A stretch of DNA of 43,428 bases from Oscillospiraceae bacterium (lineage in GTDB: Bacteria > Bacillota > Clostridia > Oscillospirales > Oscillospiraceae), in contig JAETPK010000024.1 in NCBI GenBank assembly GCA_021771265.1, positions 1 to 43,428 of the forward strand. The letters run 5' to 3'. The notes under the pieces were generated by a model. It was not told the DNA's origin, made no database searches, and saw nothing but the letters and a program-made list of their open reading frames with translations. The position numbers and the translations under genes were made by a program. Shown here in pieces: positions 8,190-30,137 of this stretch. Numbering within the stretch: position 1 is the first letter of the stretch; every line of letters begins with the position of its first letter.

Positions 8190-8484
8190 CAAACATCAAT
8201 TGAAGCATCGACAACGGCGTTGATGGAGAAAAGTACCGCAGAAGTTCCGTTTCAGTGAGCGGGAGACAGTGGAAACCCCGCACAAAGAGTCTGCGTGAAG
8301 AACACTCCGTAGCTGCAATCTGAACGCGGTTTCCGCTAGTAAGTGAGACGAGTTGTGATCGTTACATCACACGGGCTTGTTGGAGCCTTGAAGGTGACCA
8401 TTCCCCCAAGGGGAAGGTAAATTAGGTGGCACCGCGGATAGCAGCTATTCGTCCTAAAATTTTTAGGAGATAGCTGCGTTTTTT
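8190..8484 (+). ncRNA. T-box riboswitch for tRNA-Asn controlling asnB
   Basis: A full transcriptional T-box leader. Stem I has lower stem GGAG/CTCC and an AGTA box (near 8233), and its specifier loop reads GAAGAACA, giving specifier AAC at 8301-8303. The T-box AGGTGGCACCGCGG is at 8424-8437. A terminator pairs GCAGCTAT (8441-8448) with ATAGCTGC (8470-8477) and ends in GTTTTTTG. The acceptor-binding bulge is TGGC, not the common TGGT; its C would pair with the G73 discriminator expected for tRNA-Asn, which agrees independently with the AAC specifier. Uncharged tRNA-Asn should stabilise the antiterminator and switch on asnB, which begins 62 bases later. Confidence 0.93.
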
Positions 8485-14601: not shown

Positions 14602-14630
14602 TTGGCAGGCACCGTGCTATTCTTTAAGTA
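14602..14630 (+). promoter_or_regulatory. Tentative promoter of the aromatic operon
   Basis: TTGGCA (14602-14607) with TAAGTA (14625-14630) at 17 bases is the best pair I find before the leader peptide; the -10 is poor, and TATTCT at 14619 is an alternative. Confidence 0.35.
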
Positions 14631-14656
14631 TCTAAAGAGTCTGAAAGGACACCGTC

Positions 14657-14761
14657 ATGATCAACATCACCCGCGCAGCTGAATACCGCTATTTTAGCTT
14701 TACCTACTTTTTTGGTAAGGCTTATTTCGGTTGTGCTGAAAGCGTGTGCGCTCGAGTTTGA
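14657..14761 (+). CDS. Tyr/Phe-rich leader peptide of the aromatic operon (34 residues)
   Basis: A short ORF with a good ribosome site (AAAGGA at 14644-14649) encodes 34 residues, nine of them aromatic: Tyr at 10, 12, 17 and 23, and Phe at 13, 15, 18, 19 and 24. The core reads EYRYFSFTYFFGKAYF. There is no Trp, which fits an operon for Phe and Tyr. It ends 29 bases before an intrinsic terminator, and aroF begins 83 bases after its stop. This is the arrangement of pheL/trpL-type attenuation peptides: a ribosome short of Tyr-tRNA or Phe-tRNA would stall here. The peptide itself probably has no other function. Confidence 0.85.
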   Translation: MINITRAAEYRYFSFTYFFGKAYFGCAESVCARV

Positions 14762-14819
14762 CAGTGTCAAAAACTACCAGTGCATAATTGCCCGCAGCCA
14801 ACCGGCTGCGGGTTTTTTT
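14676..14819 (+). promoter_or_regulatory. Ribosome-mediated transcription attenuator
   Basis: Four segments can pair alternately. Segment 1 is CAGC...ACCG (14676-14688, over the Tyr10 codon). Segment 2 is CGGTTG-T-GCTG (14728-14738, from the Phe24 codon). Segment 3 is CAGCCAACCG (14795-14804). Segment 4 is GGCTGCGGG (14804-14812). Segments 2 and 3 give ten base pairs with one bulged T (antiterminator), 3 and 4 give the terminator, and 1 and 2 can pair through CAGC/GCTG and ACCG/CGGT. A ribosome stalled in the Tyr/Phe cluster would cover segment 1 and free 2 for 3, allowing readthrough. A small hairpin TTTGAC/GTCAAA overlaps the leader stop codon. Confidence 0.75.
14791..14819 (+). terminator. 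Attenuator terminator before aroF
   Basis: CCCGCAGCC (14791-14799) pairs perfectly with GGCTGCGGG (14804-14812) around AACC, followed by seven T. It lies within the leader, after the aromatic peptide and before the aroF ribosome site. Confidence 0.93.
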
Positions 14820-14844
14820 GTACAGATCTTAGGAGGAATTCAAT

Positions 14845-15858
14845 ATGATCGTCGTTTTAAAAAGCAATCCCAACCGTGACCAATTGGACAGCCTCATCAC
14901 CTGGCTGCAGGAAAAGGGGATCATCATCCACACCAGCATCGGCGAGGCCCACACCATTCTGGGCCTGGTGGGCGATACCTCCCAGCTGGACATTGACCTC
15001 ATTGCCGCCCTGGACATCGTGGAGGACGTGAAGCGCGTCCAGGAGCCTTACAAGAACGCCAACCGGAAATTCCACCCCGAGGATACCGTGGTGCAGGTGG
15101 GTGGCACGCAGATCGGCGGCGGCACTCTGACCATCATGGCAGGTCCCTGCTCCGTGGAATCCGAGGAACAGGTCGTGGCCATCGCCAAGGCTGTAAAGGC
15201 CAGCGGTGCCACCATGCTTCGCGGCGGCGCCTTCAAACCCCGCACCTCTCCCTATTCCTTCCAGGGCCTGGGCGCCACGGGTCTGGAGTATTTGAAGGTG
15301 GCCCGTCAGGAGACCGGCCTGCCCATCGTCACCGAGCTGATGGACCTGAGCCAGCTGCCCCTGTTCAAGGATGTGGATGTCATTCAGATCGGCGCCCGCA
15401 ACATGCAGAACTTCGACCTTTTGAAGGCCGTGGGCAAGCAGGACAAACCCGTCATGATCAAGCGGGGCATGTCCGCCACCTATGAAGAGTGGCTTATGAG
15501 CGCCGAGTACGTCATGGCCGGCGGCAATGAAAACGTCATCCTCTGCGAGCGGGGCATCCGCACCTTCGAGTCTTACACCCGCAACACCCTGGATCTGGCA
15601 GCCATCCCCGTGCTGCGCAAGCTCACCCACCTGCCCATCATCATCGACCCCAGCCACGCCACCGGCAAAAGCTGGCTGGTAGAGCCTCTGGCTATGGGCG
15701 CCGTGGCCACCGGCGCTGACGGACTGCAGATTGAGGTCCACAATGACCCGGCCCATGCCCTGTGTGACGGTCCCCAGTCCCTGAAGCCCGAGGTGTTCGA
15801 CGGTCTGGCCCGGAAGCTTCTGAAGCTCCATAAAGCCGTGAAGGCAATGGAGGACTGA
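14845..15858 (+). CDS. aroF: 3-deoxy-7-phosphoheptulonate (DAHP) synthase
   Basis: Joins phosphoenolpyruvate and erythrose 4-phosphate, the entry step of the shikimate pathway. At 337 residues it is the type Iβ form with an N-terminal ferredoxin-like regulatory domain (residues 1 to about 70, IVVLKSNPNRDQLDSLITWLQEKG), as in Thermotoga maritima, where Tyr/Phe inhibit. The barrel holds MAGPCSVES (near 99-107), LRGGAFKPRTSPYSFQGLG (about 130-148), KRGMSATYEEW and IDPSHATGK. AGGAGG is at 14831-14836. It is the first gene of the operon behind the aromatic attenuator, and tyrA begins two bases after its stop. Confidence 0.96.
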   Translation: MIVVLKSNPNRDQLDSLITWLQEKGIIIHTSIGEAHTILGLVGDTSQLDIDLIAALDIVEDVKRVQEPYKNANRKFHPEDTVVQVGGTQIGGGTLTIMAGPCSVESEEQVVAIAKAVKASGATMLRGGAFKPRTSPYSFQGLGATGLEYLKVARQETGLPIVTELMDLSQLPLFKDVDVIQIGARNMQNFDLLKAVGKQDKPVMIKRGMSATYEEWLMSAEYVMAGGNENVILCERGIRTFESYTRNTLDLAAIPVLRKLTHLPIIIDPSHATGKSWLVEPLAMGAVATGADGLQIEVHNDPAHALCDGPQSLKPEVFDGLARKLLKLHKAVKAMED

Positions 15859-15860
15859 CC

Positions 15861-16697
15861 ATGAATGTGGGAATCGTTGGCCTGGGGCTCATCGGGGGCT
15901 CCATGGCAAAGAGCATCAAATCCCGCACCGCCCACACCGTGTGGGGCGTGGACCTGAATCATGAGACTATGACCCTGGCCCGGATGTGCGGCGCCATTGA
16001 CGCCCCCCTAACAGAGGAGAATATCCCCCGGTGCGACATCCTGCTCATCGCCATCCGCCCCGCCGCCGCCATTGAATGGGTGAAGTGCCATGCCCCGCTC
16101 ATCGCCAAAAGCGCCATCGTGGTGGACCTGTGCGGCGTGAAGCGGGTGGTGGTGGCTGGCATCGCCCCCGTGGCGGAGCAGTACGGCTTCGCCTACATCG
16201 GCGGCCATCCCATGGCCGGTAAGGAGCGGGGCGGCTTCACCTCCGCCACCGATGATCTGTATGTAGGTGCCTCCATGATCCTGACGCCGGACAAGCGGAC
16301 GGACATGCAGCTGCTGGAAACGCTGAAAACATTTTTCCTGGACATCGGTTTTGCCGGCCTCACCTTCTCCGACCCGGAGGAGCATGACCGCATCATCGCC
16401 TATACCTCCCAGCTGGCCCATATCGCCTCCAGCGCTTACGTGAAGTCGCCGGAGGCCCAGCGCCGCCGGGGATTTTCCGCCGGCAGCTTCCGGGACATGA
16501 CCCGTGTGGCCCGGCTGGACGAGGATATGTGGACGGAGCTGTTTCTGGATGACGCCGACTACCTGTCCAGGGAGCTGGATGTGCTCATCGCCAATCTGAC
16601 GGAATTCGCCGACGCCCTGAAAGCCGGGGACCCGGACACGCTGCGGACTCTGCTGAAGGACGGCCGGGAGAAAAAAGCCACTGCGGGCGGAAACTGA
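15861..16697 (+). CDS. tyrA: Prephenate dehydrogenase
   Basis: Converts prephenate to 4-hydroxyphenylpyruvate with NAD(P)+, the tyrosine branch. 278 residues: an N-terminal Rossmann domain with GLGLIGGSMAKS (residues 7-18) and a helical C-terminal domain. The catalytic-histidine region is present as GGHPMAGKERGG (near 114-125), followed by the expected SQLAHIASSAYV segment. No ACT domain is present, so allosteric tyrosine control through ACT is unlikely. It lies two bases after aroF. Confidence 0.94.
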   Translation: MNVGIVGLGLIGGSMAKSIKSRTAHTVWGVDLNHETMTLARMCGAIDAPLTEENIPRCDILLIAIRPAAAIEWVKCHAPLIAKSAIVVDLCGVKRVVVAGIAPVAEQYGFAYIGGHPMAGKERGGFTSATDDLYVGASMILTPDKRTDMQLLETLKTFFLDIGFAGLTFSDPEEHDRIIAYTSQLAHIASSAYVKSPEAQRRRGFSAGSFRDMTRVARLDEDMWTELFLDDADYLSRELDVLIANLTEFADALKAGDPDTLRTLLKDGREKKATAGGN

Positions 16698-16734
16698 GTG
16701 CCGCCCCAATCCAACGAAGAAGGAGCATTCCCCT

Positions 16735-17805
16735 ATGTCTGACTCCATCCGAACCATCCAAGTCCATACCCGTCCTGCCTACACGGTCTCCATCGGCAGT
16801 GGGCTGCTGCCCCAGTGCGGGCAGCGGCTGCGGGACGTGCTGCCCCTGTGCCACGTTGCCGTCATCACTGACAGCACCGTGGCGCCGCTTTATCTGGAGG
16901 CGGTGAAGCAAAGCCTTCTTACTGCCGGCTTCACCGTCAGCAGCTACGTGTTCCCCGCCGGAGAGGCCCATAAGAACTTTGAGGCCCTCTCCGGCATCCT
17001 GGAATTTCTGGCAGAGGCCCATCTGACCCGCACAGACTGCGTGGCCGCCCTGGGCGGCGGCGTCGCTGGGGATATGGCGGGCTTTGCCGCCGCCTGCTAC
17101 CTGCGGGGCATCCACTGTGTTCAGCTGCCCACCACGCTTCTCTCCGCCGTGGACTCCTCCGTGGGCGGCAAGACGGCCATTGATCTAAAGGCAGGCAAAA
17201 ACTTGGCGGGCGCCTTCCTCCAGCCCGCCGCCGTTCTGTGCGACACGGACTGCCTGGCCTCCCTCCCCGCCGCCATGTTCGCCGACGGTGCCGCCGAGGC
17301 CATCAAGACCGGCGTCCTCTGCGACGAGAGCCTGTTTGCCCAGTTTGAGGACGGCACCCTCACCGCCGCGCCGGAGGAGGTCATCTCCCGGTGCGTGGCC
17401 TACAAGGCTGGCGTGGTGGAGCGGGACGAGAAGGAGCAGGGGGAGCGCCGCCTGCTGAACCTGGGCCACACCGTGGGCCATGCCATTGAAAAGTGCAGTG
17501 GCTACACCATCCCCCACGGTCACGCCGTGGCGGCGGGCCTGGCCATCATCGCCCGGTCGGCGGAGACCCTGGGCTGGACGGAGGCCCCCATCGCGGCCCG
17601 CATTTCCGCCTGTCTCGCCAAAAACGGCCTGCCCACCGGCACGGAATATTCCGCCGAAGCCCTGGCCGACGCCGCCCTGGCGGACAAGAAACGCGCCGGC
17701 GGCGACATCACCCTGGTCATCCCCAGGCGCATCGGCCTGTGCCAGCTGAAAAAGGTGACGGTGACGGAGCTGCTGCCCATTATCGCCGCGGGATTGGAGG
17801 GCTGA
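16735..17805 (+). CDS. aroB: 3-dehydroquinate synthase
   Basis: Cyclises DAHP to 3-dehydroquinate using NAD+ and a divalent metal. 356 residues, normal length. It shows the NAD-binding segment ALGGGVAGDMAGFAAACYLRG (about 104-124), TTLLSAVDSSVGGKTAIDL (about 131-149), and the metal ligand pattern LGHTVGHAIE and HGHAVAAG towards residue 260. GAAGGAGC precedes the start. Its stop TGA lies one base before the ATG of the aroA remnant. Confidence 0.96.
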   Translation: MSDSIRTIQVHTRPAYTVSIGSGLLPQCGQRLRDVLPLCHVAVITDSTVAPLYLEAVKQSLLTAGFTVSSYVFPAGEAHKNFEALSGILEFLAEAHLTRTDCVAALGGGVAGDMAGFAAACYLRGIHCVQLPTTLLSAVDSSVGGKTAIDLKAGKNLAGAFLQPAAVLCDTDCLASLPAAMFADGAAEAIKTGVLCDESLFAQFEDGTLTAAPEEVISRCVAYKAGVVERDEKEQGERRLLNLGHTVGHAIEKCSGYTIPHGHAVAAGLAIIARSAETLGWTEAPIAARISACLAKNGLPTGTEYSAEALADAALADKKRAGGDITLVIPRRIGLCQLKKVTVTELLPIIAAGLEG

Positions 17806-17806
17806 G

Positions 17807-18938
17807 ATGGACGTTCGTATCCAGCCTCGCCGCCTGTCTGGCGTCCCAGGATATTGAAGCCACCCTCCGCTGCATGGAGGCCCTGGGGATGCGCTGGGAG
17901 CGGCTGGGCGAGGGCACTCTGCGCATCACCGGCATCGGCAGCGCCCGCGCTTTCCCGGAGCTGCCTCATTTTGACTGCGGGGAGTCCGGCTCCACCCTGC
18001 GCTTTCTCATCCCCATCGCCCTGGCTGTGGCGGGGGGCGGCGTGTTCATCGGCCACGGCCGGCTCATGGAGCGGCCCCAGAAGCCCTACTTCGACCTGTT
18101 TGATGAAAAGGGCGTCTCCTTCCGCCAGGAGGACGGCACGCTGACAGTGCAGGGCCGTCTGACACCGGGAGAATACCGCCTTCCCGGCAACGTATCCAGC
18201 CAGTTCTTCACCGGCCTGCTATACGCTCTTCCCCTGCTGGACGGACCTTCCACCATCGCCCCCACCACGGAAGTGGAGAGCCGGGACTATATCTTGATGA
18301 CCGCAGACGCCTTGCTGGGGGCTGGTGTGGCCGTCACAGAGCCCCAGGAGGGCCGAAACTTCTTCCACGTCACGCCGCTGGCCTACCGGCCCTTTGACCG
18401 GGCGGTGGAGGCAGACTGGTCCCAGGCGGGCTTCTGGTACGCCGCCAACTTCCTGAACAGCCAGCTTTCTGTGGAAGGGCTGAATCCCGATTCCATCCAG
18501 GGTGACCGGGTGGTGGCGGAGCATTCCGCGCGTCTCTCCCGCCCCGGCGATGTGGACATCGATGTCTCCGGCTGTCCGGACCTGCTGCCGCCCCTGGCGG
18601 TGATGGCGGCGGTGCGAAACGGCACCACCCGCTTTGTGAACGCCGCCCGCCTGCGCATGAAGGAAAGCGACCGCCTCGCCACCACCGCGGCGGAGTTGAA
18701 CGCGCTGGGCGGTCAGGCGGAGGAAGGTGCGGACAGCTTGACAGTCCACGGTGTCCCCTCGTTTTCCGGCGGCACGGTGGACGGCGCCAACGACCACCGC
18801 ATCGTCATGGCGGCGGCTATTGCCGCCACCCGCTCCACGGCTCCGGTCACGATTCTGGGAGCCGGGGCAGTGAGCAAATCCTACCCCTCCTTCTGGGATG
18901 ACTACAAGCGGTTGGGAGGTAACATTCATGTCCTCTGA
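17807..18938 (+). pseudogene. aroA: EPSP synthase gene disrupted near its N-terminus (internal deletion and frameshift)
   Basis: The start at 17807 reads MDVRIQPRRLSG, a normal EPSP synthase opening, but the frame reaches a stop after four more codons. The remaining gene is in another frame from about 17844 (SQDIEATLRCMEALGM) to 18938. It keeps GESGSTLRFLIPIA, GNVSSQFFTGLLYALP, the DWSQAGFWYA segment, ARLRMKESDRL and DGANDHRIVMAAA. About 33 residues seen in homologues are missing, including the PSKS loop with the catalytic lysine that binds PEP and shikimate 3-phosphate. The join lies in GCCTGTCTGGC (17831-17841), readable in both frames, as expected for deletion between short direct repeats. 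As given it cannot make an active enzyme; an assembly error is the alternative. Confidence 0.85.
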
Positions 18939-20019
18939 GTTTGGAAAACTGCTGAAGATCTCGGTCTTCGGCCAATCCCACGGCAAAGCCATCGGCGTGA
19001 ACATCGATGGCCTGCCCGCCGGGGAGGCCATTGACCTGGAAACGCTGAACGCCTTCCTGGACCGGCGCAGGCCTGGAAAAAGCCCCCTTTCCACCGCCCG
19101 GAGAGAGAACGACGCCCCTGTGTTCCTCTCCGGAATGGAAAACGGCGTCACCTGCGGCGCACCCCTGTGCGCCATCATCGAAAACAGCGACCAGCACTCC
19201 TCGGATTACAGCGAGCTTGTCGACAAGCCCCGCCCCTCCCACGCGGACTACACCGCCCGGGTGAAGTGGGACGGCCACGCGGATATGCGGGGCGGCGGCC
19301 ACTTCTCCGGCCGGTTGACGGCGCCGCTGTGCATCGCCGGCGGCATCGCCAAGCAGATCCTGGCCCGGCGGGGCATCTTCGTAGGGGCCCACCTGGCCGC
19401 TGTGGGCACGGAAAACGACGCGCCCTTCCCCCTGCGCCCCACGCCGGAGCTGTTTGACGCCATCGCCGCCAAGGCCTTCCCCGTGGTGGATGACGACGCG
19501 GGCGCACGAATGCAGGCCCTTATCCTGGAGGCCCGGCAAAACCTGGACTCCGTGGGCGGCATCATCGAATGCGCGGCCATCGGGCTGCCAGCGGGATTGG
19601 GCGATCCCATGTTTGACGGCGTGGAGAACCGTCTGGCGTCGGCTCTGTTCGGCATCCCCGCCGTCAAGGGCGTGGAATTTGGCCTGGGCTTTGGCTCCGC
19701 CCGGCTCCACGGCTCCGAAAACAACGACCCCTTTACCTTGGAAAACGGCACGGTGGTCACTGCCGGCAACCGCGCCGGCGGCATCCTGGGCGGCATCACC
19801 ACCGGCATGCCCGTGACACTGCGGACAGCTATCAAGCCCACGCCGTCCATCTCCCGGCCCCAGCAGACCGTCAGTCTCTCTGCCATGGAAAACGCGGAGC
19901 TGGTCATTCGGGGCCGCCACGACCCTTGTATCGCCCATCGGGCCGTCCCGGTGGTGGAGGCCGTCACCGCGGCGGTATTACTAGATTTATTATTGGAGGG
20001 TAATCATGGAACTTTCTGA
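18928..20019 (+). CDS. aroC: Chorismate synthase
   Basis: Removes phosphate from EPSP to give chorismate, with reduced FMN. 363 residues, typical. It opens with the family signature FGKLLKISVFGQSHGKAIGVNIDGLPAG, then RRPGKSPLSTARRENDAPVFLSGMENGVTCGAPL near 47-80, and ends with GRHDPCIAHRAVPVVEA. ATG 18928 is chosen because GGGAGGT precedes it; it overlaps the aroA end by 11 bases. Its own end overlaps pheA by 14 bases, so translation is probably coupled. With aroA broken, its substrate would not be made by this pathway. Confidence 0.96.
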   Translation: MSSEFGKLLKISVFGQSHGKAIGVNIDGLPAGEAIDLETLNAFLDRRRPGKSPLSTARRENDAPVFLSGMENGVTCGAPLCAIIENSDQHSSDYSELVDKPRPSHADYTARVKWDGHADMRGGGHFSGRLTAPLCIAGGIAKQILARRGIFVGAHLAAVGTENDAPFPLRPTPELFDAIAAKAFPVVDDDAGARMQALILEARQNLDSVGGIIECAAIGLPAGLGDPMFDGVENRLASALFGIPAVKGVEFGLGFGSARLHGSENNDPFTLENGTVVTAGNRAGGILGGITTGMPVTLRTAIKPTPSISRPQQTVSLSAMENAELVIRGRHDPCIAHRAVPVVEAVTAAVLLDLLLEGNHGTF

Positions 20020-21142
20020 GATTCGGGAAAAAATCAATGCTGTGGACGACCAGCTGCTGGACCTGTTTTTGCAGCGGATGGACCTGTCCGAAGAGGTGGC
20101 CGCTTATAAAAACGAGCACCACCAGCCCATTTTGAATAAGCAGCGGGAGCGGGAGATCCTGGCCAAGGTGTCGGAGAAGTCCGGCGAGCGGGAGCGTTTT
20201 TCCTATCACCTGTTCTCCACCATCTTCGAGCTGTCCCGCTCCCGCCAGGCGGAGCTCATCACCGCCCCCACCAAGGTGGAGGCCCAGGTGAGGGCCTCCC
20301 TTGCCGCCGGCGGTGAGGTGTTCCCTCAGACGGGCCTGGTGGCCTGCCAGGGCGTGGAGGGCGCCAACTCTCAGGTGGCCTGCGACCGCCTGCTGCCCCG
20401 GGGCAATCTTGTGTACGTCAAAAGCTTTGAGGCCGTGTTCTCCGCCGTGGAGTCCGGCTTGTGCAAGTTCGGCGTGGTGCCCATCGAAAACAGCTCCAAC
20501 GGCTCCGTCCGGGCCATTTATGACCTCATTCAGCGAAAGAAATTCTCCATCGTCCGCTCCACCCGCCTGTGTATCCGCCACGAACTGCTGGCTCTGCCCG
20601 GTGTGAAGATGGATGACATCACGGAGATCTACTCCCACGAGCAGGCCATCGGCCAGTGCAGCAAGTTTTTGAATGGCCTCAACGGCGTCCGGGTCATCCC
20701 CTGCGACAACACCGCCATGGCCGCCAAAATGGTGGCGGACAGCGGCAGCCGCCACGCCGCCGCCATCTCCTCCCATCCCTGCGCCGCCCTGTACGGCCTC
20801 CAGTGCGTCAACGACGCCATTCAGGACAGCGACAATAACTACACCCGCTTTATCTGCATCACCAAGGACCCCATTATCTACGCCGGCGCCAACCGCATCA
20901 GCCTGATTATCGCCTGCGACAATAAGCCCGGCGCTCTGTATGAGATCTTGTCCAAGCTGGCGGCCCTGGGCATCAACATGACAAAGCTGGAGTCCTGCCC
21001 CGTCACCGGCCGCAATTTCGAGTTCATCTTCTTCCTGGAGCTGGAGGCCTCCGTCCACGAGCCCGGCGTCCTGTCCATGCTGGAGGAGCTGGAGCGCAGC
21101 TGCGCCAACTTCCAGTTTTTGGGCAGCTACGCGGAAGTGTGA
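20006..21142 (+). CDS. pheA: Bifunctional chorismate mutase / prephenate dehydratase (P-protein)
   Basis: 378 residues with three parts: chorismate mutase of the AroQ class (1 to about 90, IREKINAVDDQLLDLFLQRMDL), prephenate dehydratase (about 105-285, including IENSSNGSV and the catalytic TRF at 280-282), and a C-terminal ACT domain (about 295-378). It makes phenylpyruvate from chorismate through prephenate. In the ACT domain the GAL motif is intact (309-311), but the usual ESRP motif reads ESCP (329-332), an Arg-to-Cys change at a position tied to Phe feedback. The start overlaps aroC by 14 bases, and GGAGG precedes it. Confidence 0.95.
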   Translation: MELSEIREKINAVDDQLLDLFLQRMDLSEEVAAYKNEHHQPILNKQREREILAKVSEKSGERERFSYHLFSTIFELSRSRQAELITAPTKVEAQVRASLAAGGEVFPQTGLVACQGVEGANSQVACDRLLPRGNLVYVKSFEAVFSAVESGLCKFGVVPIENSSNGSVRAIYDLIQRKKFSIVRSTRLCIRHELLALPGVKMDDITEIYSHEQAIGQCSKFLNGLNGVRVIPCDNTAMAAKMVADSGSRHAAAISSHPCAALYGLQCVNDAIQDSDNNYTRFICITKDPIIYAGANRISLIIACDNKPGALYEILSKLAALGINMTKLESCPVTGRNFEFIFFLELEASVHEPGVLSMLEELERSCANFQFLGSYAEV

Positions 21143-21145
21143 CCT

Positions 21146-22393
21146 ATGGGCCGGGAACAAGTATTCGGCCTGCTGGGCCGGAAACTGGGCCACAGCTGGT
21201 CCGTGCCCATCCACACCGCCCTGGGCTGTCGGGGCTACCGCCTCATTGAGCTGGAGCCGGAGGCCCTGCCCGCCTTTTTGCGGGAAACGGACATCGGCGG
21301 CTGCAATGTCACCATCCCCTACAAGCGGGATGTGATGCCCTACTGTGACGTCATCGATGATGCCGCCCGGGCCATCGGCAGCGTCAACACCCTGGTCCGC
21401 CGGAAGGACGGCAGGCTGTATGCATGGAACACCGACGCCGCTGGCTTTTGCTATATGCTCCGCCGGGCCGGCATTGACGTTGCCGGCGGCAAGGTGGTCA
21501 TCCTGGGCAGCGGCGGCGCCTCCCTGACGGCCCAGGCCATGTGCCGCCGTCTGGGCGCCCGGGAAGTGGTGGTCATCTCCCGCAGCGGTGAGAACAACTA
21601 CGAAAACCTCTCCCGTCACGCCGATGCGGATATCGTGGTCAACACCACGCCGGTGGGCATGTTCCCCGGCAACGGCGCCGCGCCGGTGGATTTGGCGGCC
21701 TTCCCCGCCTGCCGGGGCGTGGCGGACGTGATATACAATCCCCGCCGTACCGCTCTGCTGCTCCAGGCGGAGCAGCTGGGCATTCTCTGCACCGACGGAC
21801 TTCCCATGCTGGTGGCACAGGCCAAAGCTGCGGAGGAGCATTTTTTTGAGACCTCCATCCCTGACAGTGAAAATGAGCGCATCCTGTCCCAGCTGCGGCG
21901 GGAGACCGCCAACATCGTCCTCATCGGCATGCCTGGCTGCGGCAAGACCACTGTAGGGGAAGCCCTGGCCCGCCTCACCGGCAGGGAGGCTATCGACATT
22001 GACCAGCGCATCGTTCAGACGGCGGGTCGCTCCATTCCGGACATCTTTGCCCAGGAGGGAGAGGCCGCCTTCCGGGAGCTGGAGCGCCGGGAGACCGCTG
22101 AGGCCGGCAAGCTCTCCGGCAAGATCATTCTGACCGGCGGCGGCGTGGTGAAGGACCCCCGTAATTACACTTCCCTGCACCAAAACGGCTACATCTGCCA
22201 TCTGACCCGGGAGCTTTCCCATCTGCCCACCGACGGCCGTCCCCTGTCCCAGGGTGCGGACCTGGCTGCCATGTGGGCCCAGCGGGAGCCTTTATACGCC
22301 CGGTTCCGGGACACGGCCATTGACAATAACGGCACGGTGGCAGACACCGCTGCCGCCATTTGGAGGGATTTTTGTGCACATTCTGGTGATTAA
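21146..22393 (+). CDS. aroEK: Fused shikimate dehydrogenase - shikimate kinase
   Basis: 415 residues joining two consecutive pathway enzymes. Residues 1 to about 250 are shikimate dehydrogenase: FGLLGRKLGHSWSVPIH for substrate serines, GGCNVTIPYK with the catalytic lysine, SVNTL, WNTDAAGF with the aspartate, and VILGSGGASLTAQAM for NADP(H). Residues about 258-415 are shikimate kinase: P-loop GMPGCGKTTVG (261-271), IDIDQRI, the FRELE arginine, LTGGGVV, and DGRPL of the lid. All key residues are present. The gene starts three bases after pheA and overlaps aroQ by 20 bases. The symbol reflects the fusion. Confidence 0.94.
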   Translation: MGREQVFGLLGRKLGHSWSVPIHTALGCRGYRLIELEPEALPAFLRETDIGGCNVTIPYKRDVMPYCDVIDDAARAIGSVNTLVRRKDGRLYAWNTDAAGFCYMLRRAGIDVAGGKVVILGSGGASLTAQAMCRRLGAREVVVISRSGENNYENLSRHADADIVVNTTPVGMFPGNGAAPVDLAAFPACRGVADVIYNPRRTALLLQAEQLGILCTDGLPMLVAQAKAAEEHFFETSIPDSENERILSQLRRETANIVLIGMPGCGKTTVGEALARLTGREAIDIDQRIVQTAGRSIPDIFAQEGEAAFRELERRETAEAGKLSGKIILTGGGVVKDPRNYTSLHQNGYICHLTRELSHLPTDGRPLSQGADLAAMWAQREPLYARFRDTAIDNNGTVADTAAAIWRDFCAHSGD

Positions 22394-29873: not shown

Positions 29874-30137
29874 TAGCATATGTGATGAACGGGACAGGTC
29901 CTGGGTACACGCTCTTTCAGAGAGCTGCCGGTCGGTGCGAGGCAGCAGGAGCCGCCGCAGGGTGTCACCCGGGAGCAGTCCGCAGAACGGGATTTTCCCT
30001 TGTATACGGACCGGGAGCCCTCCGGTATCCGGGCAATTGAGCGGCCGCCATTTCCGGCGGCAATGAGAGTGGTACCACGGAAGTGTGACTTTCGCCTCTC
30101 CTGTACGACAGGCAGGATTGCGCGAAAGTCTTTTTTT
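29874..30137 (+). ncRNA. T-box riboswitch controlling ilvE, probably reading a valine codon
   Basis: A T-box leader. The distal Stem I element CAGAGAGCTGCC-GGTCGGTGCGA-GGCAGC is at 29918-29946, T-box core TGGTACCACGG at 30070-30080, and a terminator pairs GACTTTCGC (30087-30095) with GCGAAAGTC (30122-30130) followed by seven T. Stem I is unusual: CCTGGGTACAC (29900-29910) can pair almost fully with GTGTCACCCGGG (29963-29973 area), and no clear AGTA/GAA pair is seen. The only branched-chain codons on the 3' side of Stem I are valine (GTG, GTC around 29963-29966), so tRNA-Val is the best guess. The TGGT bulge fits A73, as in tRNA-Val. Confidence 0.85.

Follow-up and report, generated by a model that had tools for sequence, protein, structure and literature searches.

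A putative ribosome-mediated attenuator ahead of a phenylalanine and tyrosine operon in Oscillospiraceae, with related leaders in other Clostridia

Main finding

A short open reading frame (ORF) ahead of aroF in a 43,428-nucleotide stretch of DNA from an Oscillospiraceae bacterium (contig JAETPK010000024.1; the whole stretch is referred to as the window) very probably belongs to a ribosome-mediated transcription attenuator of an operon for phenylalanine and tyrosine synthesis. The ORF, the RNA structures, their conservation and covariation, the gene context and the trend in leader codons, on which this reading draws, rest on sequence and computation.

The leader, the terminator and the operon

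As the original prediction had described, the ORF comprises 34 codons with four tyrosines (residues 10, 12, 17 and 23), five phenylalanines (13, 15, 18, 19 and 24) and no tryptophan; the peptide is MINITRAAEYRYFSFTYFFGKAYFGCAESVCARV, encoded by 14657-14761 with the stop codon TGA at 14759-14761. The elements of the region are as follows (all on the forward strand):

14615..14623, +, extended -10 promoter-like site TGC TATTCT, 5' of the leader (sequence; genus pattern)
14644..14649, +, Shine-Dalgarno-like AAAGGA of the leader (sequence)
14657..14761, +, Phe/Tyr leader ORF, 34 residues, stop included (sequence, conservation, shuffles)
14673..14683, +, segment 1, 5' arm of the outer stem, codons Arg6-Glu9 (fold; helix covariation)
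14696..14704, +, 5' arm of the inner stem, AGCUUUACC, Ser-Phe-Thr codons (pairing, compensatory changes)
14714..14722, +, 3' arm of the inner stem, GGUAAGGCU, Gly-Lys-Ala codons (covariation; frozen codons)
14726..14738, +, segment 2 (C), partner of either segment 1 or the terminator 5' arm (C:D tests, fold)
14790..14813, +, intrinsic terminator stem-loop (T run 14813-14819; fold, sequence)
14795..14804, +, segment 3 (D), terminator 5' arm and loop (within the terminator; sequence, fold)
14831..14836, +, Shine-Dalgarno sequence AGGAGG of aroF (sequence)
14845..15858, +, aroF, DAHP synthase, the first gene under putative control (NCBIfam PRK08673, 1e-147)
15861..22393, +, tyrA, aroB, aroA, aroC, pheA and an aroE-aroK fusion, the remainder of the operon (domain search)

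The operon serves the synthesis of phenylalanine and tyrosine (the pheA product is a chorismate mutase-prephenate dehydratase) and contains no trp gene, so that the leader is a short ORF with a start site that is rich in codons for the very products of the operon. In the window's own genome (G000, an assembly that is 95% complete), no match to Chorismate_bind (PF00425) and neither TrpE nor PabB was found, and a leader without tryptophan codons fits a genome without this TrpE/PabB domain. The missing PF00425 match also points to a likely gap in the tryptophan and folate branches of this genome, despite its full shikimate operon.

The claimed intrinsic terminator is present between the leader ORF and aroF: a perfect stem of ten pairs, followed by seven T from 14813 and separated from the leader stop codon by 28 bases, with a fold (z -4.9) whose stability was equalled in none of 200 shuffles. 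A promoter after the terminator had been named as evidence that would count against an attenuator, but the gap between the terminator and aroF (31 bases, 14814-14844) leaves little room for one, and the extended -10-like site TGCTATTCT lies 5' of the leader. The same pattern stands 5' of the leader ATG in 50/51 genus sequences; a generic sigma-70 scan of the window did not call this promoter.

Leader genes can also increase expression by re-initiation (PMC4833913), and the ORF might thus be an ordinary upstream small ORF that raises the translation of aroF, with the terminator unrelated to it. However, aroF owns an AGGAGG sequence, 69 bases past the leader stop codon, a strong terminator intervenes, and the competing helices described below covary, which makes re-initiation a highly improbable explanation of the arrangement.

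Mutually exclusive helices in the leader RNA

The RNA ahead of the terminator folds into one long hairpin, whose outer 3' arm can alternatively pair with the 5' arm of the terminator. The full scheme of pairings 1:2, 2:3 and 3:4 that had been proposed from the sequence is therefore matched by mutually exclusive, conserved helices, as judged by folds, C:D tests and covariation. The proposed antiterminator (14728-14738 with 14795-14804) can indeed form: its best duplex has -17.9 kcal/mol where shuffles average -13.3 (p 0.04, from one sequence), and the longer antiterminator fold (14728-14806) has a z of -4.3, attained by 0/200 shuffles. The proposed 1:2 helix exists and is in the right place, but its register is slightly shifted, the minimum-energy outer stem pairing 14673-14683 with 14726-14736, and the hairpin is larger than drawn. 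The original list of helices was also incomplete, as it lacked the inner stem (14696-14704 with 14714-14722), which is built from leader codons. With outer and inner stem together, the 1:2 hairpin has a z of -3.1 (0/200 shuffles). Segment C reads CGGUUGUGCUG in the window, CGGUUUGGCUG being the usual form in the genus (compared without L115, which is one base from L113).

A further candidate, a hairpin spanning the stop codon within the antiterminator loop, was discarded as too weak (mean z -0.69, with 21/49 sequences below -1); the stop codon is paired inside this candidate in 40/49 genus sequences.

Conservation within the genus

In an AroF-based search of 99 genomes, the window's own included, aroF is present in 54 genomes of the genus (again with the window's own), and a Phe/Tyr leader is present in 52 of their 54 upstream regions, 51 of these detected in one search and the last being the divergent L140, MANVFFGIYYFYFTMQS. 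The ORF is thus conserved, where its lack of conservation had been put forward as grounds for abandoning the prediction. An F/Y-rich ORF preceded by a Shine-Dalgarno sequence occurs in 51/51 genus regions (preselected for the leader), against none on the reverse strand and none in shuffles. One genus member without a leader (L134 in G029) has a different aroF upstream region; in L131 (G018), no leader is present in the region examined, which comprises 200 bases before the contig edge.

It had further been predicted that the codons forming the antiterminator arm are more conserved than codon function requires, and this was borne out in the genus comparison. At six codons whose amino acid is more than 90% conserved, GGT AAG GCT and GGT TTG GCT, the most frequent synonymous codon accounts for 0.99 of cases; at 12 such codons near the start of aroF (codons 2-20), it accounts for 0.73. 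The Gly-Lys-Ala codons are identical in 50/50 leaders of the genus that encode GKA.

Near-invariance of the GKA and G-L-A residues close to the ORF end would also suit a TnaC-like mechanism, in which the nascent peptide senses free phenylalanine or tyrosine and arrests the ribosome, rather than starved codons doing so; invariant C-terminal residues are typical of arrest peptides. However, the invariance extends to the nucleotide level, the synonymous codons being frozen, as the two stems explain. The peptides listed from outside the genus, moreover, differ widely except for their aromatic residues, the identity of these residues tends to follow the operon, and in L140 and L063 the ORF ends ahead of the GGUAA or AGUAA element, which thus falls 3' of the stop codon. 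Peptide arrest is therefore considered very unlikely, and starved codons are the preferred signal.

Covariation of the hairpin

The check for compensatory changes that the original prediction had proposed was carried out, and the helices do show such changes among relatives. For 44 leaders (a subset of 60 trimmed sequences from which redundant genus ones had been removed) aligned by sequence only, and against shuffles that do not preserve the relatedness of the sequences, 82.1% of cells were paired (78.9 in shuffles) with 53 double-change cells (26.5) and a covariation score of 0.188 (0.152), each unmatched in 500 shuffles. Pairs with a double change numbered 16 (10.6; 1/500 as high), and further pair types 45 (41.3; matched by 55/500). 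Versions of the structure slid along the alignment pair 32-49% of cells, yet sliding by -1 yields 18 double-change pairs, more than the 16 of the unshifted structure; for the outer stem, the structure that was counted had been derived by folding these very sequences one at a time, which gives it an advantage over the slid versions. Among 74 distinct sequences fitted to a covariance model, in an alignment that leans towards the structure, 296 double-change cells (121 in shuffles) and a score of 0.414 (0.220) were likewise reached by 0/500 shuffles of the same kind.

The inner stem is paired in 94-97% of cells and the outermost seven pairs in just 62-67%, and RNAalifold on alignment A3 recovered the inner stem only. 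A MAFFT alignment of divergent full leaders misplaced the inner stem and was set aside in favour of the trimmed sets and the model-fitted alignment.

A folding model of the masking ribosome

The effect of a translating ribosome was modelled by placing a 31-base block (the assumed ribosome footprint) at each codon and folding the transcript as far as segment 3 extends; all figures are those of equilibrium folds with the block, without kinetics. For 49 genus sequences, the mean probability of C:D pairing, P(C:D), is 0.75-0.98 with the block over the aromatic codons preceding Gly-Lys-Ala and drops to about 0 once the ribosome is beyond them. With the block at the stop codon, the mean is 0.18 and the median 0.01 (above 0.5 in 7/49), and the mean is 0.49 without a ribosome (above 0.5 in 24/49). 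In the 65 regions from outside the genus, the respective means are 0.58 at aromatic codons, 0.08 at the stop codon and 0.31 without a ribosome; P(C:D) at aromatic codons exceeds that at the stop codon in 62/65 regions and that without a ribosome in 54/65, with L045, L106 and L111 in the opposite direction (aromatic codons not above stop). These 65 include six whose C:D or ORF calls are poor or odd, as well as L052, a near copy of L053. In the equilibrium model, an aromatic stall thus frees segment 2 and completion of the leader masks it. For the window itself, P(C:D) is 0.85 without a ribosome, so that the model does not show the untranslated state to be clearly off.

From these results we infer ribosome stalling, a starvation signal and a termination outcome, which would be connected as follows. 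Transcription would start at the promoter ahead of the leader ORF. When charged tRNA-Phe and tRNA-Tyr are both plentiful, the ribosome would reach the stop codon and cover segment 2 (14726-14738), the terminator would form, and transcription would end ahead of aroF. When either charged tRNA is scarce, the ribosome would stall on the clustered tyrosine and phenylalanine codons 10-19 and keep segment 1 and the inner stem open; the free segment 2 could then pair with the terminator 5' arm, and with this antiterminator formed, RNA polymerase would read through into the operon. According to the folding model, a ribosome stalled at the final aromatic pair, Tyr23-Phe24, would cover segment 2 and so promote termination. 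In the absence of translation, the long 1:2 hairpin might sequester segment 2, again favouring termination.

Related leaders beyond the genus

By record titles, such leaders also occur outside the Oscillospiraceae; putative related switches are found in various other bacteria, mostly Clostridia, judging from the sequences compared. An F/Y-rich ORF (at least 6 F/Y within 12 residues) preceded by a Shine-Dalgarno sequence is present in 48/86 non-genus upstream regions, compared to a shuffle mean of 0.05 (20 rounds) and none on the reverse strand. Helices were analysed in 67 of the 86 regions, the rest being without a leader or terminator by the criteria used, and the C:D and masking tests cover 65, as a wrong, far-upstream ORF had been chosen in L043 and L068 (L043 does have a leader). 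C:D complementarity reaches p<=0.05 in 39/65 divergent regions, where about 3 would be expected, and misses that level in 26/65. This pairing is retained across many sequence changes, with C and D changing together: GUAAUUUGUG with CACAGGUUAC in L140, GCGUUUGGCUG with CAGCUAAACGC in L049, and GAAUUUCGCUGC with GCAGCGAAAUUC in L070. Two layouts occur, in which C lies either inside the end of the ORF, as in the window, or just past the stop codon of shorter leaders.

F/Y-rich leaders also stand before aroF in L072, L080, L105, L058, L100, L095 and L109, which are contigs of metagenome-assembled genomes (MAGs) titled Oligosphaeraceae, Lentisphaerae, Kiritimatiellae, Thermoguttaceae and Treponema and may reflect either horizontal transfer or mislabelled MAGs.

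Searches of whole genomes with covariance models, R1 and R2 having been built without gene context, located 75 distinct places in all: 67 before aroF, 6 before tyrA and 2 elsewhere. Model R1 found 51 places in 50 of 295 genomes of the order (47 before aroF, two of these with a gene context known from the aroF upstream analysis, 3 before tyrA and 1 elsewhere), at least six of which were training sequences (G000, G044, G080, G091, G093 and G096). Model R2, which was trained on most R1 matches, found 11 places among 392 genomes of the class and 8 among 299 of the phylum, all before aroF and each count including the window's own; the class contributed 9 places new to R2, the phylum 7 and the relatives 8. 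Searches of relatives of single genomes gave 15 places for 40 relatives of G190 (13 before aroF, 2 before tyrA), 12 for 40 relatives of G287 (7 aroF, 4 tyrA, 1 elsewhere), and just its two known places for 41 relatives of G969. Occurrence is patchy, with no match under strict filters in 245/295, 381/392 and 292/299 genomes of order, class and phylum, respectively; of the same family but outside the genus, two genomes matched in the order search and at least 20 of those listed did not. Many leaders are missed by R1, since at E<=1 the 76 related loci yielded 27 matches.

Short ORFs are common, and a biased one could come to lie near an intergenic terminator by chance, but the shuffles, the reverse strand, the conservation and the whole-genome specificity contradict this explanation, whose probability is practically negligible.

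Leader codons and the genes controlled

Across the loci compared, the choice of aromatic codons tends to follow the genes that the leaders would control: phenylalanine-rich before aroF-pheA, mixed before aroF-tyrA and leaning towards tyrosine before some tyrA genes. F/(F+Y) has a median of 0.87 in aroF-pheA leaders (n=6, two of them being the tandem pair of one genome, G969), 0.50 in aroF-tyrA leaders (n=38) and 0.33 where tyrA comes first (n=6). Uncorrected for phylogeny, p is 0.002 for aroF-pheA vs aroF-tyrA, 0.01 for tyrA-first vs aroF-pheA and 0.08 for tyrA-first vs aroF-tyrA. Downstream genes were searched in 50 loci, of which 38 are aroF-tyrA and 4 aroF-pheA; the two G969 units bring the latter to 6. 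The others were excluded: L052 and L087 as near or exact copies, L105 for its order aroF-pheA-tyrA, and L050, L081, L095, L097 and L098 because the second gene was unseen or was neither tyrA nor pheA. A further 15 loci (L135-L147, L150 and L151) are too short for this comparison.

Three genomes carry both kinds of leader: the tyrA and aroF leaders have 7 Tyr + 2 Phe and 8 Phe + 3 Tyr in G147, 7 Tyr + 2 Phe and 6 Tyr + 4 Phe in G190, and 9 Tyr + 1 Phe and 6 Tyr + 4 Phe in G138. Three of the six tyrA-first leaders (G1019, G287 and G1018) have phenylalanine and tyrosine in about equal numbers, as does one aroF-pheA leader, L058 (5 Phe + 5 Tyr). In G969 (L217), aroF-pheA is preceded by a tandem of two leader-terminator units, one having 7 Phe/1 Tyr and the other 7 Phe/0 Tyr. 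Judged by eye, each C of this tandem pairs with its own terminator arm.

Comparison with known regulatory systems

Both T-boxes that had been noted in the window are found, one at 8211-8459 above the gathering score and one at 29876-30102 with E 9e-20, whose 87.8 bits fall short of the cut-off of 93; the former precedes asnB and the latter match ilvE. In the genome, the first ORFs after ten T-box matches are tyrS, ileS, leuS, thrS, hisS, ilvE, a TrpB-like gene, a MetN-like ATPase, an aminotransferase and one unnamed ORF.

With 15 T-box matches at E<=0.001 in the window's own genome (4 above the cut-off) and a conserved RNA element ahead of biosynthetic genes, the hairpin might itself be a T-box or a metabolite-binding riboswitch and the ORF incidental. 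At the leader, however, the T-box covariance model has no match, and no family of Rfam 15 matches at gathering score in the window and 20 related loci, on which grounds both candidates were rejected. Furthermore, the ORF, its start site and its aromatic codons are kept whereas the stem sequences vary, and phenylalanine or tyrosine codons tend to follow the downstream gene, which leaves a riboswitch or T-box with a minute probability. No Phe/Tyr leader in Clostridia is reported among the matches listed in the full-text literature, from which subscription journals are mostly absent, so that absence is unproven. The class of mechanism is known; since neither an Rfam match in the loci scanned nor a literature report was found, the RNA family is apparently new, and the leader is best read as classical ribosome-mediated attenuation.

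The E. coli pheA (pheL) and pheST leaders combine a phenylalanine-rich peptide, alternative helices and a terminator. Compared by description, the leader described here differs from them in using tyrosine as well, in preceding a whole shikimate operon and, within the genus, in a segment 2 that forms part of the ORF. The original prediction called leader-peptide attenuation classic in Proteobacteria, with Firmicutes mostly using T-boxes or TRAP; T-boxes are the usual device in Firmicutes and TRAP is another, but leader peptides have already been reported there, for histidine, for leucine and, in Acholeplasma, before aroF. Attenuation by leader peptides is generally regarded as a device of Proteobacteria and Actinobacteria, and the T-box as one of Firmicutes (PMC1262725, PMC2965389). 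The histidine leader peptides of Firmicutes precede the his operon or hisS paralogues and are described from the Bacillus cereus group, some Eubacteriales such as C. difficile, Erysipelotrichales and bacilli; like the present leader, they represent leader attenuation where T-boxes are usual, with histidine codons in their case (PMC2965389, PMC9413887). A leucine-rich attenuator peptide of S. aureus is likewise an instance of leader attenuation in an amino acid pathway of Firmicutes, here that of branched-chain synthesis (PMC5794164). The nearest published relative found is the uORFC-13-1 motif, a uORF with at least one phenylalanine residue followed by a terminator and aroF, for which attenuation was proposed; its 24 unique sequences come from Acholeplasma and unassigned environmental samples only (PMC8632094). 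Compared by description only, the present leaders differ from it in having phenylalanine and tyrosine, in occurring in many Clostridia and also before tyrA, and in their defined 1:2/2:3/3:4 helices.

Implications

On balance, the leaders probably form an uncatalogued family of Phe/Tyr attenuator RNAs scattered over Clostridia, in which one ancestral design, with stems made from aromatic codons, was copied to tyrA, duplicated side by side ahead of aroF-pheA (G969) and adjusted in its Phe:Tyr codon ratio to the branch controlled. The two leaders per genome in G147, G190 and G138, tyrosine-rich at tyrA and less so at aroF, amount to a natural codon-swap experiment, which makes the mechanism directly testable. 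A covariance model of the family can aid the annotation of aromatic amino acid regulation in metagenomes. If true, the occurrence of similar leaders in MAG contigs assigned to Lentisphaerae, Kiritimatiellae, Thermoguttaceae and Treponema would imply that operon and switch are transferred together. Clostridia, many of which stem from metagenomes of animal guts according to record titles, seem to rely on classical attenuation for phenylalanine and tyrosine synthesis; in the case described here, the genome has a T-box match before tyrS as well.
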